NCBI GenBank assembly: GCA_903825645.1
Contig: CAIKBL010000017.1
Span: 62,001 to 126,000 of the forward strand
Direction of reading: 5' to 3'
Source: an uncultured Pseudomonadota bacterium
GTDB taxonomy: Bacteria > Pseudomonadota > Gammaproteobacteria > Ga0077536
Length of the DNA: 64,000 nt
The notes beneath the pieces are model-generated. The model was not told the DNA's origin, did no database searches, and saw nothing but the letters and a program-made list of their open reading frames with translations. This document shows positions 44,146 through 52,607 of this stretch, piece after piece (the stretch's first letter is position 1; every line of letters starts with the position of its first letter). The position numbers and the translations under genes are program-made.

Positions 44146-45198
44146 TCAGACCCGATAGGCTGTAAAAGGCTGGTCGGACTCGGGTCCTTTGCGGGCGTGT
44201 AACATTCCCGCAGGCAAGTCCATGATGATGGTCGCACAACTGCCGACCGGCTCCCCCCCGAGGAGCGGCTCCGGTCGGTAGTGAACTCGAATCGACGCGG
44301 GCGAACCGTCCTCAAAATCGAGGATCCGACGCAGGGCGCTCACTCCGCCCGTCGCGGTGGCTGCGCCCACCTCGTCCGCCAACCGACAGGCCGCCGCGAG
44401 TCGTTCGCGTGAGGTCGGTACCACGAATCCTTCCGGGTCACGAGACGAGGCAATGCAGTGATTCGTATGTGCGTAAATACCGCCGATGGCCTCGGCTTCG
44501 GCGACAATACTACCGGCAAACTCGATGCTGATTGCTTCCCCGTTTGCGTCCGCAATCAGGTAGTGACTCGACTTTCCAAGTCCGGCGCGCGCCAGCGTAC
44601 TTCTAGCCTCGGCCAAGCTAGAGCACTCCAGTAGCGCGCGCCCCAACACATGAATCGGGACGCCTTCGGGGCCATGGAGGGCCACCATAAAATTCAGGCA
44701 CACACCGAGACCGGCGCTGTTCAAGCCAATCTTAGCCAGTTGCCCCGGTTCGGCGAAGGTGAGGATCCGAAGTCCAGAGGGGTAGGTATAGCGGGTCAAG
44801 GTGGCGAGATCTGCGAGCGCGGCGAGCCAATCCCAGGTCTGACCGAGCACGCGGCTTGCCGGCAGATACAACGCCGTACACTCACCTACGCGCGCATTGA
44901 GGATTTCGCTGCGCGCATTGAGTGCGTACGCTTCCCATCGTGCAATCCCCGCCGCGTCCGCAAGCGCATCTATCTCGGTGCCATAATCCGCATGAAAATC
45001 CGAGATGCGTTCGCGCACCTGCCCCGCCATCACACGGATCTCGGTAGCGGACAGCTTGCTCGTCGCAAAGACGGTCTGCCCGTAATAACGCCAAGCAGCC
45101 CTGATCCGTTGGCGATACAGGCTGCCTACCATAGCGCCCCGCATCTTGGGGTCGCCCTTCACGTCGATCAATGGCAAAGGGTTTTCAACAGCAGTCAC
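44146..45198 (-). CDS. C45-family peptidase / acyl-CoA:6-aminopenicillanate acyltransferase-like (Ntn hydrolase)
   Basis: 350-residue relative of the penicillin acyltransferase IAT. The expected autocatalytic Cys is Cys107 in VGECTALYL, preceded by ALNARSEIL and followed by the family block LGQTWDW. LNSAGLGVCLNF and ANGEAISIEF also fit. Ntn hydrolases of this group self-cleave before the Cys and then hydrolyse or transfer acyl groups on amides. Start is read as GTG 45198, seven bases from AGGAG; a TTG at 45204 abuts that site. Divergent from the phosphatase gene, 153 bases away. Confidence 0.87.
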   Translation of the reverse strand: MTAVENPLPLIDVKGDPKMRGAMVGSLYRQRIRAAWRYYGQTVFATSKLSATEIRVMAGQVRERISDFHADYGTEIDALADAAGIARWEAYALNARSEILNARVGECTALYLPASRVLGQTWDWLAALADLATLTRYTYPSGLRILTFAEPGQLAKIGLNSAGLGVCLNFMVALHGPEGVPIHVLGRALLECSSLAEARSTLARAGLGKSSHYLIADANGEAISIEFAGSIVAEAEAIGGIYAHTNHCIASSRDPEGFVVPTSRERLAAACRLADEVGAATATGGVSALRRILDFEDGSPASIRVHYRPEPLLGGEPVGSCATIIMDLPAGMLHARKGPESDQPFTAYRV

Positions 45199-45351
45199 AC
45201 GCAATCTCCTGTCCCGAGAGCGGCGAGGACAACGCCGTGAGACAATAGTCTACCCGACTGTGACCCCGGCAATCGGTCGTAATAAGCCTTACCGGGAAAA
45301 TTGTCGCGAAAACCGGTGGTCAGTGTCGTGGCGACACAGGATAATCAGCGG

Positions 45352-46374
45352 ATGGACGACATACTCGCAATAGAAATTATCCGCACCGCGCAGGCATCCC
45401 ATCGCATTGCGTGGACGCCTGCGCTGACCGATGCGCCCCTGACCGTGTTCGGTGGCCAGACCCCTGACACCATCGATTACGCGACGCCGCTCGCGCGCGG
45501 GGTGCGCCACCCGATTGAAATTCCGGGACTTGCGGTACCCAGCTTTTTTGCCCTTCAGGCCCCCGATCGACCTATCTGGATTGCGGGAGCCCGGCAACTT
45601 GCCCTCGATGGGGCGGTCAACCTTCGTGACGTCGGCGGCTATGCGACGGACACCGGAAGACGCGTGCGCTGGGGCACCTTGTATCGTTCGGGACACCTTT
45701 CCCAACTCGCCGCAACCGCGCGCGAGGAAGTCGCCGCCTTGGATATTCGGACTGTCTGCGATTTTCGGCTGGCCGACGAACGCGCAACCGAGAACGCGAC
45801 ACTGCCCAATAACCCACGCCTCGAGACCCTTGCGATTCCGCCCGGGCGTAATGACCAACACTTCTTCCATCGATTGTTCGAAAGCACTGACGATCCGACG
45901 CGCGTGGTCGAAGAGATGCATCACCTATTGCGCGCCTTCGTCATCGATCTGGCGCCGCACTACCGGAAAATGTTCGAGGTGCTACTGGAGACACGCGGCC
46001 CCGGCGCCGTCCTGCTGAACTGTTCTGCCGGGAAAGAGCGAACTGGGGTGGGCGTCGCCCTGCTCCTGCTAGCCCTTGGGGTACCCCGCGCGACCGTCAA
46101 GCATGATTTTTTGCTTTCCGGACGGTACTTCCCCGCGGAGAGCGAGATGCCAAGAGTCCTGCAAAAATATGCGGTGCCGGGCAAAGATCCCGCGGTGATG
46201 CGCCAGTTAGTTGCCCCTCTGCTGCGTATGCAGGATTCCTATCCGGACACGGTACTGGAGGCAATAGATACTATTGTTAAAATCGACGGCGGCGGCCTAC
46301 CCGGGTTCTTCCAGAGTCACTATGGTCTCGGCACGGCCGAACTGGCTCAACTCCGAGACACCTTTACGACCTGA
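45352..46374 (+). CDS. tyrosine-protein phosphatase (Y_phosphatase3 type) with N-terminal extension
   Basis: 340 residues. The phosphatase domain starts near 88 with NLRDVGGYATDTGRRVRWG and LYRSGHLS, and has the P-loop NCSAGKERTG with nucleophile Cys224 and Arg230 (CX5R). The family hydrolyses phosphotyrosine or phosphoinositides. The first 85 residues are beta-rich and not part of the domain. ATG 45352 (AGGA ten bases upstream) is preferred to TTG 45301. First of a tight same-strand series; the next gene begins 19 bases after its stop, so its substrate may be a phosphorylated intermediate of that series. Confidence 0.85.
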   Translation: MDDILAIEIIRTAQASHRIAWTPALTDAPLTVFGGQTPDTIDYATPLARGVRHPIEIPGLAVPSFFALQAPDRPIWIAGARQLALDGAVNLRDVGGYATDTGRRVRWGTLYRSGHLSQLAATAREEVAALDIRTVCDFRLADERATENATLPNNPRLETLAIPPGRNDQHFFHRLFESTDDPTRVVEEMHHLLRAFVIDLAPHYRKMFEVLLETRGPGAVLLNCSAGKERTGVGVALLLLALGVPRATVKHDFLLSGRYFPAESEMPRVLQKYAVPGKDPAVMRQLVAPLLRMQDSYPDTVLEAIDTIVKIDGGGLPGFFQSHYGLGTAELAQLRDTFTT

Positions 46375-46393
46375 ATCTGGGGAGAAAACCCGT

Positions 46394-47122
46394 ATGGCGA
46401 CCCTATACACAGATACCGACAAATACGCCACTCAGTCCACTTTTGCGCTGGTGGAGGCCTACAATGGCGCGGTAAAAGATCTCGTCCGACGCCGCTTCGC
46501 GGCGAGCGGGTTGTCCTGGCAGGCATTTGTCGCCGACACCGCCTACGAGACGATCACCCGGGAGGACATCGCCGCCGTCGAGCAACAGTTGCTGGCGAGC
46601 GGATACCGCTTCGAGCCCTCGGCCATCTCATCTGCCCGGGAACGCCCTGAAGCCTATAAGGACTCGGGCCTCTATCAGGAAAACTTCAGCTTTGAACACC
46701 CGGCCGCGCCAACCGCCCCCGCGGACGCCCGTGGCCGCTCGCTGAGCGGAGTCGGCGACAATGTTGTCACCCGGACGGAGAACCTCGTCGGCATCGCACG
46801 GTACGTGCGAACCAGTGAAAAGGTCCTTGAATATCTCACCGGCGGGGTACCGGCTGACACGATCGCCATCGTTGATGACTCCGGCGGAACACTCACAGCG
46901 CCTATCCTAGAAAAATTTCGGGGGGTGCTGTGTGCCGGTGGGACAACCCGCTCCCATCTCGCGATCCTTACCCGCGAATATGGCATCCCTTGCCTCATGA
47001 ATGTGCGACTGTCGGGGATCAAGGACGGTATGCGAATCGAAATCGAGTGTGCTGCCCGGTCAAAAACTGGCGACGATTACGCGAATAATGTCGACGCCCC
47101 AGCGTATGTCTGGCGTCTCTAG
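46394..47122 (+). CDS. stand-alone PEP-utilising enzyme mobile (phosphohistidine swivelling) domain protein
   Basis: 242 residues: a helical N-terminal 110 residues of unknown type, then the swivelling phosphohistidine domain, with TIAIVDDSGGTLTAPILEKF, VLCAGGTTRSHLAILTREYG and IPCLMNVRLSGIKDGM. His188 is the expected phosphocarrier. Canonical domains have GG-x2-SH; here three residues separate GG from SH. The domain normally ferries phosphate between an ATP-grasp site and a TIM-barrel site (PEP synthase, PPDK, phenylphosphate synthase); neither is fused. GGAGA lies eight bases before the ATG. It is followed 36 bases later by the 723-residue protein, its likely partner. Confidence 0.82.
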   Translation: MATLYTDTDKYATQSTFALVEAYNGAVKDLVRRRFAASGLSWQAFVADTAYETITREDIAAVEQQLLASGYRFEPSAISSARERPEAYKDSGLYQENFSFEHPAAPTAPADARGRSLSGVGDNVVTRTENLVGIARYVRTSEKVLEYLTGGVPADTIAIVDDSGGTLTAPILEKFRGVLCAGGTTRSHLAILTREYGIPCLMNVRLSGIKDGMRIEIECAARSKTGDDYANNVDAPAYVWRL

Positions 47123-47158
47123 GACGCACGCCCCCCAGATTTAGACAAGGACTCCAGC

Positions 47159-49330
47159 ATGCCTGACTTCAAACTAACTTATGCGCAATTGCTCGAAACG
47201 AACAATCTCATCCAACAGAACGCGGATGAGATCTACTGGTTGTGCGCGACACGTACCGTGCAGGAATCCAAGATTTTCCCGGTCTCAGCCTACATCCTTT
47301 TTTCTTATCTGAATGCCTATTACCGATATCCGGCCTTACTTCGAAAAATTGAAGCGCAGATGTCCGCAGAGGAAATTGGCGACCGGGCGCGCAATCAGGG
47401 CATCAAAATCGTTGCCTGGTGTTTTCCTTGTTTCTATCTGCTCGGGCGCGAGATGCTCATCAACTGGGGTGTCATCAAGCCGACCGACGCGGTAGAAGAT
47501 GTCAGCTATGTGCTCGATTTCTGGAAGCGCTTTCAGCTCGCCTGGCATCGTAATAACGGCAACCTGACTAACCGTCAGGCCGGTCACCGCGCCCAGATCA
47601 TGCCGGAGCAGCGGCTACAGGTCTTTCATGCCGATGCTTTCGAATGTCGGGCTGGCGATCCGCTCCACAAGGCCGCACAGGCCTTTCTGGCGACAGTCGC
47701 CCAATATGGGTTTCTGGTTTCCTGTGAATCACGTCTAACACTGCACAATCACGGCCCCTACAAGCTCACCGATAAGCGGGAGATGTTGGTGCGGGATTTC
47801 AACGAACTCTCGGAAGCGACGGTGCCTTGGCTGGACGGCATCGGCGAGGACATCCCTTACAACAACCTGACCGTGACGATGATTATCGAAGGCGTCCATA
47901 TCAATCTACTGGATGATTGGGGCTCGTTCGAATCGACGCCAGAGCTAAAGGCCGAACACATGGTCGGCGTTGGGCTCTATACGGCGGACACGCTCTCCGA
48001 CGGCCATCAGCCTGTCGGCATGGGGAGTACCGAAGAACTGACGGCCACGTTCATCGATCTCACTGAACGGATCAAACGGGCAACCACGCGTCTGTGGCAT
48101 GTGATGGCGGGCTGGACGCGCGACCAGCAACTCGATGCCGGGGCGTTGACTTATTCCGGTGTCATCCGCGAATTTGCCCTCATCGCGGGCGTCTACGATC
48201 CCGCTGACTGGATGCTCATCGATGAACGCGCCGAGCGCTTCCGCCCGCTGATGAACGATGAATATGGGAATCTGTTTTTAGGGGAACTGGTCGGCTATAT
48301 CAGCACGCCCAGCCAGCGCATGCATGGCTATGCCATGATGCAACACACTGACAATCCGACTAAATCACTGAGCTATTTCCCGTACGCCATGCTGGTCGAT
48401 CAGGAATACACCCGCGGTGTGGGGCCGATGCGACCCGGGATCAGCAATCTGCCGCAAAAAAATAATCGCTATCGGACTTCCCAGGGCGTCCTGACTCTCG
48501 AAGAATACATGCAGCGGGCGCGCGAATTCGTACCCGCCGCCTGTACTGAACCTTATCGATTTCTCTGTGCCGATTGGGTGAAGTATCACTATGACACCCC
48601 GCAGGCAGGCAACCTGTTCAAAATCGAGCAGCGGCATTCTCGTCTGCTCCGGGACAAAGGCGCAGGCTTGTCGCGGGAGGACGTCGAGACGCTTCGCGCC
48701 GGGTCAAAAAAGACACGCCGCGGAGGCCCGACAAGCCACCATCAGATCATGCACGCAGCGGCCATCAAAAAGCACGGTGACTCGGCTCAAATCACCGCTA
48801 TCAGCGGCGAAACGATCGAGATCGCCGCGCAGGAGATTGCTTGGGCCGTGGCCAACGGTCGCCTCGCAGAAGCAAACGGACGCTATCTGTTGACGCCGGC
48901 AGGTCAAATGATACTGGCCAGCGAATACTCGCGTTTTTATAGCGCGTTGAGAACTAACGCGAACTTTCGCGACGCCTACGCGCGGTTTGAGCGGATTAAC
49001 CGTGAACTGAAACAGATCATCACGGATTGGCAGACAATCGAAATCGGCGGACAGCGGATGTCCAATGTTCATGCCGATCAGGCGTATGACGCCCGGGTAA
49101 TTGCCAGACTCGGTGATTTACATGAACGTTTCGAACCGATTCTCGCTCAATTCGTAATAGGCGCAGCCCGCTTGCGCTATTACGATCGCGGATTAGCGAA
49201 TGCGCTCGAACGCGCCGAGGCGGGCGATCTGGCCTGGGTCAGCGAAGTAAAAATCGAGAGCTATCACACCCTTTGGTTCGAGCTGCACGAAGAGCTCCTG
49301 CGACTTCTCGGAGAGCAACGAGAAGAGTAG
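47159..49330 (+). CDS. large hypothetical protein, unrecognised family
   Basis: 723 residues, soluble, aromatic-rich and mostly helical; I do not recognise a family. No signal peptide, P-loop, ATP-grasp or flavin motif is seen. Features: QNADEIYWLCATRTVQESK (about 19-37), hydrophobic KIVAWCFPCFYLLG (about 83-96), a polar central block ending GYAMMQHTDNPTKSLSYFPY (about 383-402) and RPGISNLPQKNNRYR, and a possible winged-helix-like segment AVANGRLAEANGRYLLTPAG (about 560-580). Ordinary codon use, good spacing to both neighbours (36 and 91 bases). Position between a phosphohistidine protein and a carboxyltransferase-like barrel suggests a catalytic partner, perhaps a kinase half that has diverged beyond recognition. 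Confidence 0.8.
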   Translation: MPDFKLTYAQLLETNNLIQQNADEIYWLCATRTVQESKIFPVSAYILFSYLNAYYRYPALLRKIEAQMSAEEIGDRARNQGIKIVAWCFPCFYLLGREMLINWGVIKPTDAVEDVSYVLDFWKRFQLAWHRNNGNLTNRQAGHRAQIMPEQRLQVFHADAFECRAGDPLHKAAQAFLATVAQYGFLVSCESRLTLHNHGPYKLTDKREMLVRDFNELSEATVPWLDGIGEDIPYNNLTVTMIIEGVHINLLDDWGSFESTPELKAEHMVGVGLYTADTLSDGHQPVGMGSTEELTATFIDLTERIKRATTRLWHVMAGWTRDQQLDAGALTYSGVIREFALIAGVYDPADWMLIDERAERFRPLMNDEYGNLFLGELVGYISTPSQRMHGYAMMQHTDNPTKSLSYFPYAMLVDQEYTRGVGPMRPGISNLPQKNNRYRTSQGVLTLEEYMQRAREFVPAACTEPYRFLCADWVKYHYDTPQAGNLFKIEQRHSRLLRDKGAGLSREDVETLRAGSKKTRRGGPTSHHQIMHAAAIKKHGDSAQITAISGETIEIAAQEIAWAVANGRLAEANGRYLLTPAGQMILASEYSRFYSALRTNANFRDAYARFERINRELKQIITDWQTIEIGGQRMSNVHADQAYDARVIARLGDLHERFEPILAQFVIGAARLRYYDRGLANALERAEAGDLAWVSEVKIESYHTLWFELHEELLRLLGEQREE

Positions 49331-49421
49331 ACAGCTATCTCCAGCCGGGTGATCCGGCTGGCAGGACTGAACGTTCCGCGGCAAACTTGCCGCCCCTGAC
49401 AGTAATTGGAAGAACATCAAC

Positions 49422-50879
49422 GTGGCCCATATCGAATTCTTGGATGAGACCATGCGCGACGGGCAGCAGAGCCTGTGGGGCATGCGCATGAAAGCAGGCA
49501 TGGCGCTGCCCGTCGCCCCCTTGATCGATCAGGTTGGCTACCGAGTAATCGACCTGACGGGCTCTTCGCAGTTTGAAGTGCTAGTCCGCGAGTGTCAGGA
49601 AGATCCCTGGGCCGGCCTAGATCTGCTGGTGCAGGCAATGCCCCGCACACGCCTCAGAGCCGGCATGCGGGCCAATGCCGCCGTGACTTTCAGTGTGACG
49701 CCAGATGCCCTCATGGACGCCTGGATGCGCCAACTGAATGTACATGGCTGCCGTAGCTTTTGGGTCTACGACGTGCTGTTCAACATCGACAAGATGCACC
49801 GACTGGCGAAGATCGCGAAGGGCTTTGGCTCCGAGGTTGCCGGCACCATCATGTATACGCTAAGTCCGGTCCACACTGATGCCTATTATGCCGCCAAGGC
49901 GGCGGAAATCGCGGCATCCCCCGATATTGACACGCTGCTGCTCTACGACACCGCCGGTGTGCTGGACGCCTCGCGGGTGCAAACATTAGTGCCGGCAATT
50001 CTTGCGCAGGCCCGCGGAAAACCGCTTGAACTGCACTCCAACAACCGCCTCGGGCAGTCGGTTCAGGCCTATCTTGCGGCTATCGATCTCGGCGTCACCA
50101 TTCTCCACACGAGTACCCGCCCACTGGCAAATGGTCCGGCCGTGCCCTCAATCGAAATCATGGCTGCAAATGTCGCCCGGCGTGGACATACCCATGGGAT
50201 AGATACCACTAAACTGGCGCCAATCGCCGAACATTTCGAGCAGGTCGGCAAGGCCGCCGGCTTCCTCGTCAATCAATTCGCCGAATACGACGTGCTATCA
50301 GTCGACCACCAAATCCCCGGGGGCATGGTCGGGACGCTGCGGGCACAGCTCGCCAAACATGGCATGAGTGATCGCCTTCAGGAAGTATTCGAGGAAACGG
50401 CCGTTGTCCGCCGCGAGCTCGGCTATCCAGGCATGGCGACACCGTTCAGCCAGCTGGTAGGTATCCAAGCGGTGCTGAACATCGTGAGTGCGCGACGCTA
50501 CGCGGTCGTGCCCGATGAAGTGATCCAATACGCTGCCGGGTACTACGGACAACCTGTCGCCCCGATCGAAGCCGAAGTCCTCGACCGGATTATGTCGGCC
50601 CCGCGCGCCAAAGAAATACTGGCCAATCCCCCGGCCCAACCTTCCCTAGCTGAATTGCGTCGGCAATATGGCACCGAGGATGATGATGAACTCATTCTGC
50701 GCGCGCTGGTCCCCGCGACTGATCTCGAACGGATGCGGGCAGCCGGCCCGGTCAAGACCACCTTTCCGCTCTTATCTTCAAGTGAGCTCGATCAAGTCCG
50801 GCGCCTGATGAAGCTCGCTACCGCAGCCGTGGTACGCGTCAGCACACCGGAGTTCAAGCTTCAGCTACGGCGTTTTTGA
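49422..50879 (+). CDS. pyruvate-carboxylase/oxaloacetate-decarboxylase carboxyltransferase-like TIM barrel with altered active site
   Basis: 485-residue DRE-TIM-type protein. The start FLDETMRDGQQSLW and the overall path match the carboxyltransferase domain of biotin enzymes. But the carbamylated lysine of IKDMAGLL is Tyr175 here (LLLYDTAGVLD), the second metal His of HxH is Asn207 (LHSNN), and there is no biotin attachment motif (AMKM) in this protein or any neighbour. So transcarboxylation from biotin is unlikely; a lyase or aldolase reaction on an acid is possible. Follows the 723-residue gene by 91 bases and precedes an SDR gene by 31. Confidence 0.82.
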   Translation: MAHIEFLDETMRDGQQSLWGMRMKAGMALPVAPLIDQVGYRVIDLTGSSQFEVLVRECQEDPWAGLDLLVQAMPRTRLRAGMRANAAVTFSVTPDALMDAWMRQLNVHGCRSFWVYDVLFNIDKMHRLAKIAKGFGSEVAGTIMYTLSPVHTDAYYAAKAAEIAASPDIDTLLLYDTAGVLDASRVQTLVPAILAQARGKPLELHSNNRLGQSVQAYLAAIDLGVTILHTSTRPLANGPAVPSIEIMAANVARRGHTHGIDTTKLAPIAEHFEQVGKAAGFLVNQFAEYDVLSVDHQIPGGMVGTLRAQLAKHGMSDRLQEVFEETAVVRRELGYPGMATPFSQLVGIQAVLNIVSARRYAVVPDEVIQYAAGYYGQPVAPIEAEVLDRIMSAPRAKEILANPPAQPSLAELRRQYGTEDDDELILRALVPATDLERMRAAGPVKTTFPLLSSSELDQVRRLMKLATAAVVRVSTPEFKLQLRRF

Positions 50880-50910
50880 GCCATTTCACGAATCATCCGA
50901 GGGAGTGTCC

Positions 50911-51693
50911 ATGGGTCGTCTGGATAACAAAATAGTCTTAATCACCGGGGCAAGCGCGGGTATCGGCCGGGCCTGCATGTTGCTTTTCGCCAAAGAGGGC
51001 GCGACCGTATGTGGGGTATCGCGGACCCAGTCAAACCTCGACGACACCTTGAGGGACGTGACTGCCGCCGGCGGGAAGGGCAGCACTATCAGCGCCGATC
51101 TCTCCACCCCAGAAGGTGCTGAAAAGGCGGTGGCGCAATGCCTTGCCCGGTATGCGCGCATCGATATCCTCGTTAACGCGGCGGGTGTCGGTTACAGCTG
51201 GCGGCATAGTAGTCCCGGCTCGATGAATCCAGTTCACTCAACACCCATCGACAAGTGGCGCGAGGTCATGTCGATCAATTTGGACAGCGTTTTCTACATG
51301 TGCCGTCTCGTGTTGCAGCAAATGAAGGCGCAGCAAAAAGGTTCGATCGTCAACGTGGCGAGTATTTTCGGTCTCGGCGGAGCGCCGGACGCGCATACCT
51401 ATACCGCCACGAAGGGGGCCATCATCAATCTATCGCGCTCCATGTCGGTCGCTTATGTGGATGACCATATCCGCTGCAATGTCGTCGCACCTGGTTTCGT
51501 CCAAACACAGATGGTGGAAGACGTCCTGCCGATGTTGTTCTCTGCGGAAAACCCCAAATTAATCTCGCCCATGGGACGCCCGGCAACGGTGGAGGAAGTG
51601 GCCTATGCGTGCCTCTTCTTTGCTTCGGAGGAATCCTCTTACTGCACCGGCTCGGTCCTCGCGGTCGATGGAGGCTCCACCGCACGCGCTTGA
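50911..51693 (+). CDS. short-chain dehydrogenase/reductase
   Basis: 260-residue classical SDR: TGASAGIG cofactor loop (about 11-18), NAAGVG, catalytic Ser in VNVASIFGLGGAPD, YTATK (Tyr/Lys) and C-terminal GSVLAVDGGSTARA. ATG 50911 stands five bases from GAGGGAG; a GTG at 50905 overlaps that site. In the run after the carboxyltransferase-like gene it may reduce or oxidise the product of that step. Confidence 0.92.
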   Translation: MGRLDNKIVLITGASAGIGRACMLLFAKEGATVCGVSRTQSNLDDTLRDVTAAGGKGSTISADLSTPEGAEKAVAQCLARYARIDILVNAAGVGYSWRHSSPGSMNPVHSTPIDKWREVMSINLDSVFYMCRLVLQQMKAQQKGSIVNVASIFGLGGAPDAHTYTATKGAIINLSRSMSVAYVDDHIRCNVVAPGFVQTQMVEDVLPMLFSAENPKLISPMGRPATVEEVAYACLFFASEESSYCTGSVLAVDGGSTARA

Positions 51694-51809
51694 TTCGAGG
51701 TATTGCGACGATAATCAACGACCTCGCTTGGTGGTTGAATCTGTCCCTGCGGCAGACAATGGGATATCATTTCGGAAAGGTGCGTACCGCCAACCGATCG
51801 AGGTCACCC

Positions 51810-52607
51810 ATGGAATCGGATCCCTACTTTCAATTCAAGGCGGCCCAACGCGAAGGCTGGGCGCTGTTCGCCCCGCTGGAAGCCCTCACGACGCCGCCGG
51901 CAGGCGCCTTAGTGTCGTTCGCAGGGATCGCGGCAGATGTCCAGATCCTTGATGTCGCCTGCGGGACCGGGGTCGTCGCAGTCACCGCGGCGCGCCGGGG
52001 CGCGCACGTAAGCGCACTCGATCTCTCGCCGGTTTTGCTAGAACGTGCCCGCCACAATGCCGATCTCGCCGGGGTGAACATTGCCTTCACCGAGGGCGAT
52101 GTCGAAGCGCTGCCCTACCCCTCCGCCAGCTTCGACATCGTGATGAGTCAGTTTGGTCACATGTTCGCACCACGGCCCGCCGTGGCATTGGCCGAGATGC
52201 TGCGAGTACTAAAACCTGGCGGCTGCCTAGCCTTTTCAACTTGGCCGCCGGAAATGTTTACCGGGCGCATGTTCCTGTTGATTAATCAGTATCTTGCACC
52301 ACCGCCGGGCGTTCCACCCAGCACCGACTGGGGCGACGTCCGTATCGTACGAGAGCGACTGGGTGAGGCCGTCAGCGAGCTCGTATTCGAGCGCGAACTG
52401 ATGACGGCGCCGACGCTCAGTCCGGCGCATTACCGTGCGGCCATCGAACGGACGGCCGCACCGGTTATCAAGCTGGTGGAGTCTTTGCGGGAAGACCCGC
52501 CTACGCTCGCCCGCTTCCGGGGAGAACTAGAGGCGTTGATCGCCCTTTATTTGGTAGCCAATGTCGTGCGTCAGCACTTTCTGATGACGCGGGCCAAAAA
52601 ACGCTGA
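51810..52607 (+). CDS. class I SAM-dependent methyltransferase
   Basis: 265 residues. SAM motif I ILDVACGTGVVAVTAARRG (about 47-65), acidic motif II VSALDLSPVLLERAR, EGDVEALPYPSASFDIVMSQ and LAEMLRVLKPGGCLAFSTWP are all typical of UbiE/COQ5-like small-molecule methyltransferases. The frame extends upstream into the SDR gene, but the ATG at 51810 with GAGGT ahead fits the family. Last gene of the same-strand run that starts at 45352. Confidence 0.9.
   Translation: MESDPYFQFKAAQREGWALFAPLEALTTPPAGALVSFAGIAADVQILDVACGTGVVAVTAARRGAHVSALDLSPVLLERARHNADLAGVNIAFTEGDVEALPYPSASFDIVMSQFGHMFAPRPAVALAEMLRVLKPGGCLAFSTWPPEMFTGRMFLLINQYLAPPPGVPPSTDWGDVRIVRERLGEAVSELVFERELMTAPTLSPAHYRAAIERTAAPVIKLVESLREDPPTLARFRGELEALIALYLVANVVRQHFLMTRAKKR

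Follow-up and report, generated by a model that had tools for sequence, protein, structure and literature searches.

A run of six genes in a 64,000-nucleotide stretch of DNA from an uncultured member of the Pseudomonadota (Gammaproteobacteria; Ga0077536; assembly GCA_903825645.1, contig CAIKBL010000017.1, positions 62,001 to 126,000 of the forward strand; hereafter, the window) probably codes for that half of a multipart dikinase which contains the swivel and the substrate module, together with a phosphatase, and feeds a phosphorylation-dependent carboxylation. All six genes lie on the plus strand of the window, in the order phosphatase, stand-alone phosphohistidine (swivel) protein, 723-residue protein, carboxyltransferase-type barrel, short-chain dehydrogenase/reductase (SDR) and methyltransferase. 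The first five are separated by gaps of 19, 36, 91 and 25 bp, which bears out the operon-like run that had been described from the sequence by an earlier reader (the original prediction). The outline then proposed, of phospho-activation followed by carbon-carbon bond chemistry and dephosphorylation, is supported by a paralogous operon in the same genome, by gene runs on Rhodococcus plasmids and by the Hpe pathway. The accompanying proposal of an ATP-grasp or kinase fold hidden in the 723-residue protein found no support: this protein is a fusion of two other modules, and an ATP-grasp protein, a truncated pyruvate phosphate dikinase (PPDK), is encoded separately on another contig.

Parts of a probable divided kinase

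The two modules of the 723-residue protein, D515 (residues 1-515) and D200 (residues 525-723), form an unbroken frame of the window's type (type A) only in the window's genome (G000) and in G002, G003 and G004 among the family genomes, plus a divergent copy in G008. In the other family genomes in which both parts are visible, they are separate genes or are split by a stop. A joint alignment of fused and split rows (A1) was set aside, as its D200 rows seemed misplaced. No Pfam match was obtained for the whole protein, for 20 of 20 D515 members or for 24 of 24 D200 members, and no ATP-grasp was seen among the Pfam or fold matches; fold matches of this kind do not exclude one. The AlphaFold model of D200 (pLDDT, 96) has an N-terminal MarR-like winged helix followed by helices and resembles winged helices with a VIA-align Z of ~12 over ~70 residues (best Foldseek E, no better than 0.013). 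The D515 model reached a pLDDT of 78 and a pTM of 0.81, and a profile search of the PDB with D515 found nothing. Two further D515 occurrences were seen. A third, divergent D515-D200 protein (G008:C225:1355-5372; 46% identity) has a barrel of the Glu type described below ~1 kb downstream, and a plasmid of Methylibium petroleiphilum PM1 (L088, 8010-10226) encodes a 415-aa D515-like protein together with a swivel protein of 149 aa, ~4 kb ahead of a B12-binding domain, a ligase and a MeaB gene; this stretch has no annotated PPDK.

The second gene had been read as a stand-alone phosphohistidine protein with His188, and this reading holds. Its match to the PF00391 domain (phosphoenolpyruvate [PEP]-utilizers mobile domain) lies above the cut-off, and the histidine is kept in 49/49 distinct matches among the loci compared, the scope also of the phosphatase and PPDK residue counts below; no such match had lost it. 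The N-terminal ~130 residues are also conserved (alignment of 22) and have no Pfam match above the cut-off. The phosphatase, which matches the PF13350 profile and carries a CX5R motif, keeps its Cys and its Arg in 28/28 distinct matches each.

A second set of genes (type B), paralogous to that of the window, lies on contig C81 of the same genome and consists of SDR, swivel, D515, AMP-binding ligase, D200, PPDK, biotin carboxyl carrier protein (BCCP), biotin carboxylase (BC), barrel, thiolase and SDR. Its swivel protein is 52% identical to that of the window, its D515 61%, its D200 50% and its barrel 73%. The two types of D515 are separated in a tree (99/100) and are thus old paralogues. The C81 PPDK has 581 residues, with a PPDK_N (ATP-grasp) domain and a PF00391 phosphohistidine domain of its own and without a PEP domain; its histidine is kept in 43/43 distinct matches. 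Hence the statement that both catalytic partners of the phosphohistidine domain are missing is correct inside the window only; genome-wide, an ATP-grasp is encoded on C81. Another contig of this genome, C44 (L073, 2-2598), carries a second small-molecule dikinase pair, in which the gene for a swivel protein precedes that for an ATP-grasp protein of 416 aa; the C-terminus of the latter by eye resembles a cyclic-nucleotide-binding domain.

PPDK and D515 tend to occur together. Of the 36 family genomes, 23 have a PPDK ortholog (at least 54% identity), comprising 23 of the 29 with D515 and none of the 7 without it (Fisher p of 2e-4, uncorrected for kinship). The sole strong D515 set and the PPDK-BCCP-BC-barrel-thiolase-SDR cluster are on different contigs in seven genomes (G023, G027, G029, G032, G033, G034 and G035), and the PPDK clusters of these genomes show no swivel, D515 or D200. 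Supply in trans would be the simplest reading of this two-locus pattern.

In two Rhodococcus plasmids the kinase, carboxylase and phosphatase genes are in one run: swivel, D515, ligase, D200, PPDK, BCCP, BC, barrel, OB-fold, thiolase, phosphatase and SRPBCC, with no SDR. A PF13350 gene or one annotated "tyrosine-protein phosphatase" is present in the Rhodococcus runs, and because of this the phosphatase type of the window belongs to the same system. The parts are also found fused. Rhodococcus opacus B4 has a 793-aa chain of swivel (HMM E, 2e-15), D515-like (4e-22) and D200 (3e-28) domains in the order of the window, with a PF13350 phosphatase directly after it and a PPDK ~7 kb off. Swivel-D515 fusions of 542 and 577 aa are found in R. 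oxybenzonivorans and R. pyridinivorans (hhalign, 99.9%), a PPDK-D200 fusion in Kibdelosporangium and an AMP-binding ligase-D200 fusion in Rhodococcus sp. LW-XY12. These fusions support the view that PPDK, D200, swivel and D515 form one functional unit. Upstream of the single-PPDK run on both Rhodococcus plasmids are two further D515-like modules, one of them swivel-fused (L078, 11905-16275; L079, 9311-12882), and it is possible that three modules share one PPDK donor on each plasmid.

We compared 20 type-A loci, comprising the window and 19 of the loci L007-L028 from a 33-locus set; L014 was left out as a near-duplicate, and L024, L025 and L029-L039 are not type A. The swivel was present in all 20 loci and the phosphatase in 19, the twentieth (L008) being cut by a contig end. 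D515 was found in 17, D200 also in 17 (on its own 14 times and fused 3 times) and the SDR in 15; all the misses again go back to a contig end, which for the SDR lies at this gene or ahead of it. As the methyltransferase is present in only 4/20 loci, and the barrel in 3/20 as a full open reading frame (ORF) plus one cut copy (L018), the conserved core is phosphatase, swivel, D515, D200 and SDR, and the barrel and the methyltransferase are optional. Thus, when adjacency in relatives is examined, the core genes stay together while the barrel and methyltransferase do not in most relatives. Genes outside the core each occurred in at most 6/20 loci (ignoring ORFs that overlap the core on another strand or frame), and these neighbors gave no consistent hint of a substrate. 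In a class-wide sample D515 was found in 4/369 genomes, all four from the family of the window, so that D515 is narrowly distributed in this class. Three type-A loci (L007, L010 and L018), 72-81% identical to that of the window, come from metagenome records titled Klebsiella pneumoniae; these organism titles look wrong. The flanks of five loci (L017, L020, L021, L022 and L028) contain two genes whose starts by eye resemble hydantoinase A/B or acetone-carboxylase-type subunits.

Table 1. Positions of the genes and modules of the run in the window
Feature	Positions	Strand	Basis and remarks
Phosphatase, PF13350 (Y_phosphatase3), CX5R with Cys241 (numbering of ORF 45301-46374)	45352..46374	+	Pfam 8.1e-52
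Stand-alone swivelling phosphohistidine protein	46394..47122	+	PF00391 at residues 156-219, His188; Pfam 3.6e-8
D515 module (residues 1-515 of 723-aa protein)	47159..48703	+	Separate gene in most relatives; proposed substrate-binding module
D200 module, proposed docking adaptor for ATP-grasp protein	48722..49330	+	MarR-like winged helix and helical C-terminus; fusions
Carboxyltransferase-type barrel, Tyr175 and Asn207 replacing Lys and His	49422..50879	+	Pfam HMGL-like and PYC_OADA; tree
SDR oxidoreductase, conserved-core member	50905..51693	+	Pfam; present in 15/20 type-A loci
S-adenosylmethionine-dependent methyltransferase, accessory	51810..52607	+	Pfam; 4/20 type-A loci; alternative start

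Two of the starts in Table 1 differ from those of the listed ORFs. The phosphatase start corresponds to residue 18 of its ORF; of the 19 relatives with an uncut phosphatase gene in L007-L028, the alignment begins at residue 18 or 19 in 12 and at residues 1-15 or, in one case, 82 in the rest, which makes this start plausible. The methyltransferase ORF as listed overlaps the SDR, and its true start is probably that given. Directly upstream of the run, on the opposite strand, is a C45 autoproteolytic acyltransferase-like gene (44146-45204, minus); a relative of this gene adjoins the type-B locus in G002 (L157), and in G035 one lies not far from the PPDK locus (L152).

A rebuilt barrel and the relation to known systems

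The original prediction described the barrel as lacking its usual catalytic lysine and was right in this: Tyr175 occupies the position of the catalytic Lys of pyruvate-carboxylase-type enzymes, and Asn207 replaces one metal-binding His. Among 47 distinct relatives, 30 have Tyr with HxN, 10 Lys with HxH, 1 Lys with QxH and 4 Glu with HxH; one further Tyr row is cut and one row covers neither site. Tyr and HxN always go together, in 30/30 Tyr-type sequences complete at the two sites, among them that of the window. A tree of 43 rows unites the Tyr rows (100/100) and also joins the Tyr and Glu rows in a group (100/99). Closest to them (98/93) are the barrels from an hpe-like R. leguminosarum operon and from two plasmid clusters that start with a gene for a Tm-1-like protein and not for a kinase. 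The carboxyltransferase of the R. leguminosarum operon, to which the barrel of the window is 39% identical, retains the Lys and HxH. The label hpe-like is based on gene order and annotation, and hpe-like sequences stood in for HpeB and HpeH in the comparisons made here. R. opacus G13 (L087) has a Glu-type barrel with BC and BCCP and no D515 within its 31 kb, so loss of the Lys is not strictly tied to a neighboring D515. A Glu in place of the Lys could stand in for the carbamate carboxylate; Tyr with Asn would not do so in any obvious way. By sequence, oxaloacetate decarboxylase alpha, pyruvate carboxylase subunit B and transcarboxylase 5S share the barrel and the PYC_OADA region, but their catalytic Lys and second metal His are replaced here, and the function of the window barrel must presumably differ in detail from theirs. 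Beside a biotin-dependent cluster on a Novosphingobium resinovorum plasmid (L080, 14806-15903, minus) is a gene whose start by eye resembles biotin synthase.

The closest known systems are Hpe (Rhodococcus rhodochrous GD02, hpeHICBADEF) and Acv (Sphingobium SYK-6). In Hpe, a swivel dikinase is reported to phosphorylate 4-hydroxyacetophenone or acetovanillone, a biotin carboxylase to act on the phosphorylated compound only and a phosphatase then to remove the phosphate (PMC9618137); the kinase is described in PMC12167813, and a later Hpe paper is PMC13101465. As described in these reports, both systems share with the one proposed here a swivel dikinase, a biotin carboxylase of three parts whose barrel belongs to the same family, a phosphatase, a coenzyme A (CoA) ligase and phosphorylation before carboxylation (PMC9618137). 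They differ in that the kinase here is divided into as many as four pieces and has a PPDK-type ATP-grasp protein that has its own phosphohistidine, a D200 adaptor and a substrate module that is not detectably related. Unlike Hpe, the genes are spread over two loci, the phosphatase is of the PF13350 type rather than a NagD relative (the NagD/HAD-type HpeD), a thiolase takes the place of a beta-keto hydrolase, and the barrel lacks the Lys and one metal His. The carboxyltransferase feature of Hpe is matched, by the identity to the hpe-like enzyme and by the BC and BCCP on C81. The HpeH/HpeI kinase pair is not, as the swivel part alone resembles the HpeH-like protein of a plasmid operon. Because the kinase pair, the NagD-type phosphatase and the intact barrel site are all unmatched, the system of the window is set apart from Hpe members. 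D515 was also considered as a homologue of the substrate domain of HpeH or rifampin phosphotransferase, but neither BLAST nor hhalign supported this in comparisons with one HpeH-like sequence and a Kibdelosporangium 575-aa protein. HpeHI, CreHI, PpsAB and rifampin phosphotransferase are reported to combine an ATP-grasp, a swivel His and a substrate domain (PMC12167813), whereas here the swivel is a separate protein and a second phosphohistidine is present in the ATP-grasp protein.

A relation to mycobacteria is also apparent. VadK (Rv1127c) of Mycobacterium tuberculosis is reported to be a PPDK without a PEP domain that autophosphorylates a histidine, is more soluble when coexpressed with its operonic partner Rv1126c and fine-tunes the methylcitrate cycle as a histidine kinase, without acting on methylcitrate-cycle transcription (PMC13400623). 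It thus resembles the C81 PPDK in being truncated, in lacking the PEP domain and in having an adjacent partner gene, and differs in its reported role. One Mycobacterium avium plasmid encodes a relative of the C81 PPDK (50% identity) with D200 as the next gene, and in M. pinniadriaticum the two genes are two apart. Gene order suggests that Rv1126c may be a D200 protein. In the titles and abstract openings found by searches of the open-licence literature, no such system is described besides the Hpe and VadK papers; the acetone and acetophenone carboxylases listed there are different systems.

Proposed pathway and its alternatives

The sequences themselves establish the gene content, the kept catalytic residues, the fusions, the two-locus arrangement and the kinship of the barrel with the hpe-like carboxyltransferase. 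From there we infer the following reactions, with their substrate class, the docking by D200 and the supply in trans. The truncated PPDK made from C81 would load phosphate from ATP, docked by D200, the candidate adaptor for this shared protein, and His188 of the swivel would carry the phosphate to a small molecule bound by D515, the proposed substrate-binding module. The compound phosphorylated in this way would most likely be a hydroxylated ketone, with the ketone probably made by the SDR; it would be carboxylated beside its carbonyl by a biotin carboxylase, with BC and BCCP supplied from C81 and the barrel from the window or C81. The PF13350 phosphatase would then remove the phosphate, and the CoA ligase and thiolase would finish by CoA transfer and thiolysis. 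For a similar system, such chemistry is proven by the Hpe pathway.

Several observations weigh against this pathway. The barrel is absent from most type-A loci, and its altered metal site could mean that carboxylation has been lost. No intact PPDK ortholog was found in 6/29 D515 genomes (G001, G007, G008, G009, G030 and G023), although G023 has a PPDK fragment at a contig end and the cluster of G030 is cut by one. G001 (94% complete) has a type-A locus and neither a PPDK ortholog nor a barrel was detected, which speaks against a strict need for these unless genes are missing from the assembly. The PPDK clusters of G023, G029 and G033 begin at most 1.4 kb from a contig end, and that of G027 at most 3 kb, so that in these four genomes the D515 set may be close to the cluster on that side. 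The D515 model has no trustworthy fold match in the PDB (best Foldseek E, 0.3; best VIA Z, 3.8), values that do not establish a new fold and leave room for one shared with the substrate domain of HpeH or rifampin phosphotransferase, and D515 showed no BLAST match and an hhalign probability of 0.07% with the N-terminal domain of one HpeH-like protein. None of the D515 and D200 proteins has a known activity. Finally, the ATP-grasp protein on C44, with PPDK_N at 205 bits, adjoins a phosphohistidine protein and could be a different donor.

The absence of the barrel from most loci, the replacement of the metal-site Lys and His and the gene content of G001 would be explained if no carboxylation accompanied the action of the kinase and phosphatase. 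The phosphate would then protect or activate an intermediate that the SDR uses, and the barrel would be a later, optional addition. We consider this unlikely: a barrel of the window barrel's clade (at least 63% identity) is present somewhere in 24/29 D515 genomes, accompanied by BC and BCCP in the clusters examined (one of ten stretches being cut before those genes), and kinase and carboxylase genes are tightly linked in the Rhodococcus runs. That the same swivel kinase is fed by another ATP-grasp, such as the C44 protein, is the least probable alternative, since that protein already has its own swivel partner, and the PPDK type with which D515 co-occurs, and which is also found paired or fused with D200, is that of C81. 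It is scarcely more probable that the swivel phosphate is a signal, regulating transcription through the winged helix of D200 with the phosphatase as the reset. The MarR-like fold and the reported histidine kinase role of VadK are in keeping with such a function, but D200 is fused to enzymes (ligase, PPDK and D515), its neighbors on C81 and in Rhodococcus are catabolic enzymes, D515 is large, conserved and of the kind expected for a substrate, and VadK itself is reported to be without effect on methylcitrate-cycle transcription (PMC13400623).

Phosphorylation-dependent carboxylation by a divided kinase, therefore, is the reading that we prefer. More tentatively, D200-paired truncated PPDKs might be shared donors for exchangeable swivel/D515 modules encoded elsewhere, with a two-histidine relay from the PPDK His to the stand-alone swivel His to the substrate, and prior phosphorylation of the substrate would allow the carboxyltransferase to work without the Lys and with an altered metal site; we regard this extension as speculative. 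If it is true, mycobacterial VadK would be an ATP-grasp donor looking for a swivel partner, and orphan truncated PPDKs would have a possible explanation. D515 and D200, two families without a Pfam match, gain a testable role, and the carboxyltransferase clade with a rebuilt active site would be useful for asking what purpose the carbamylated lysine serves. Phosphorylation before biotin-dependent carboxylation, a recently found route, would thereby be extended to a kinase of separate and possibly shared parts.

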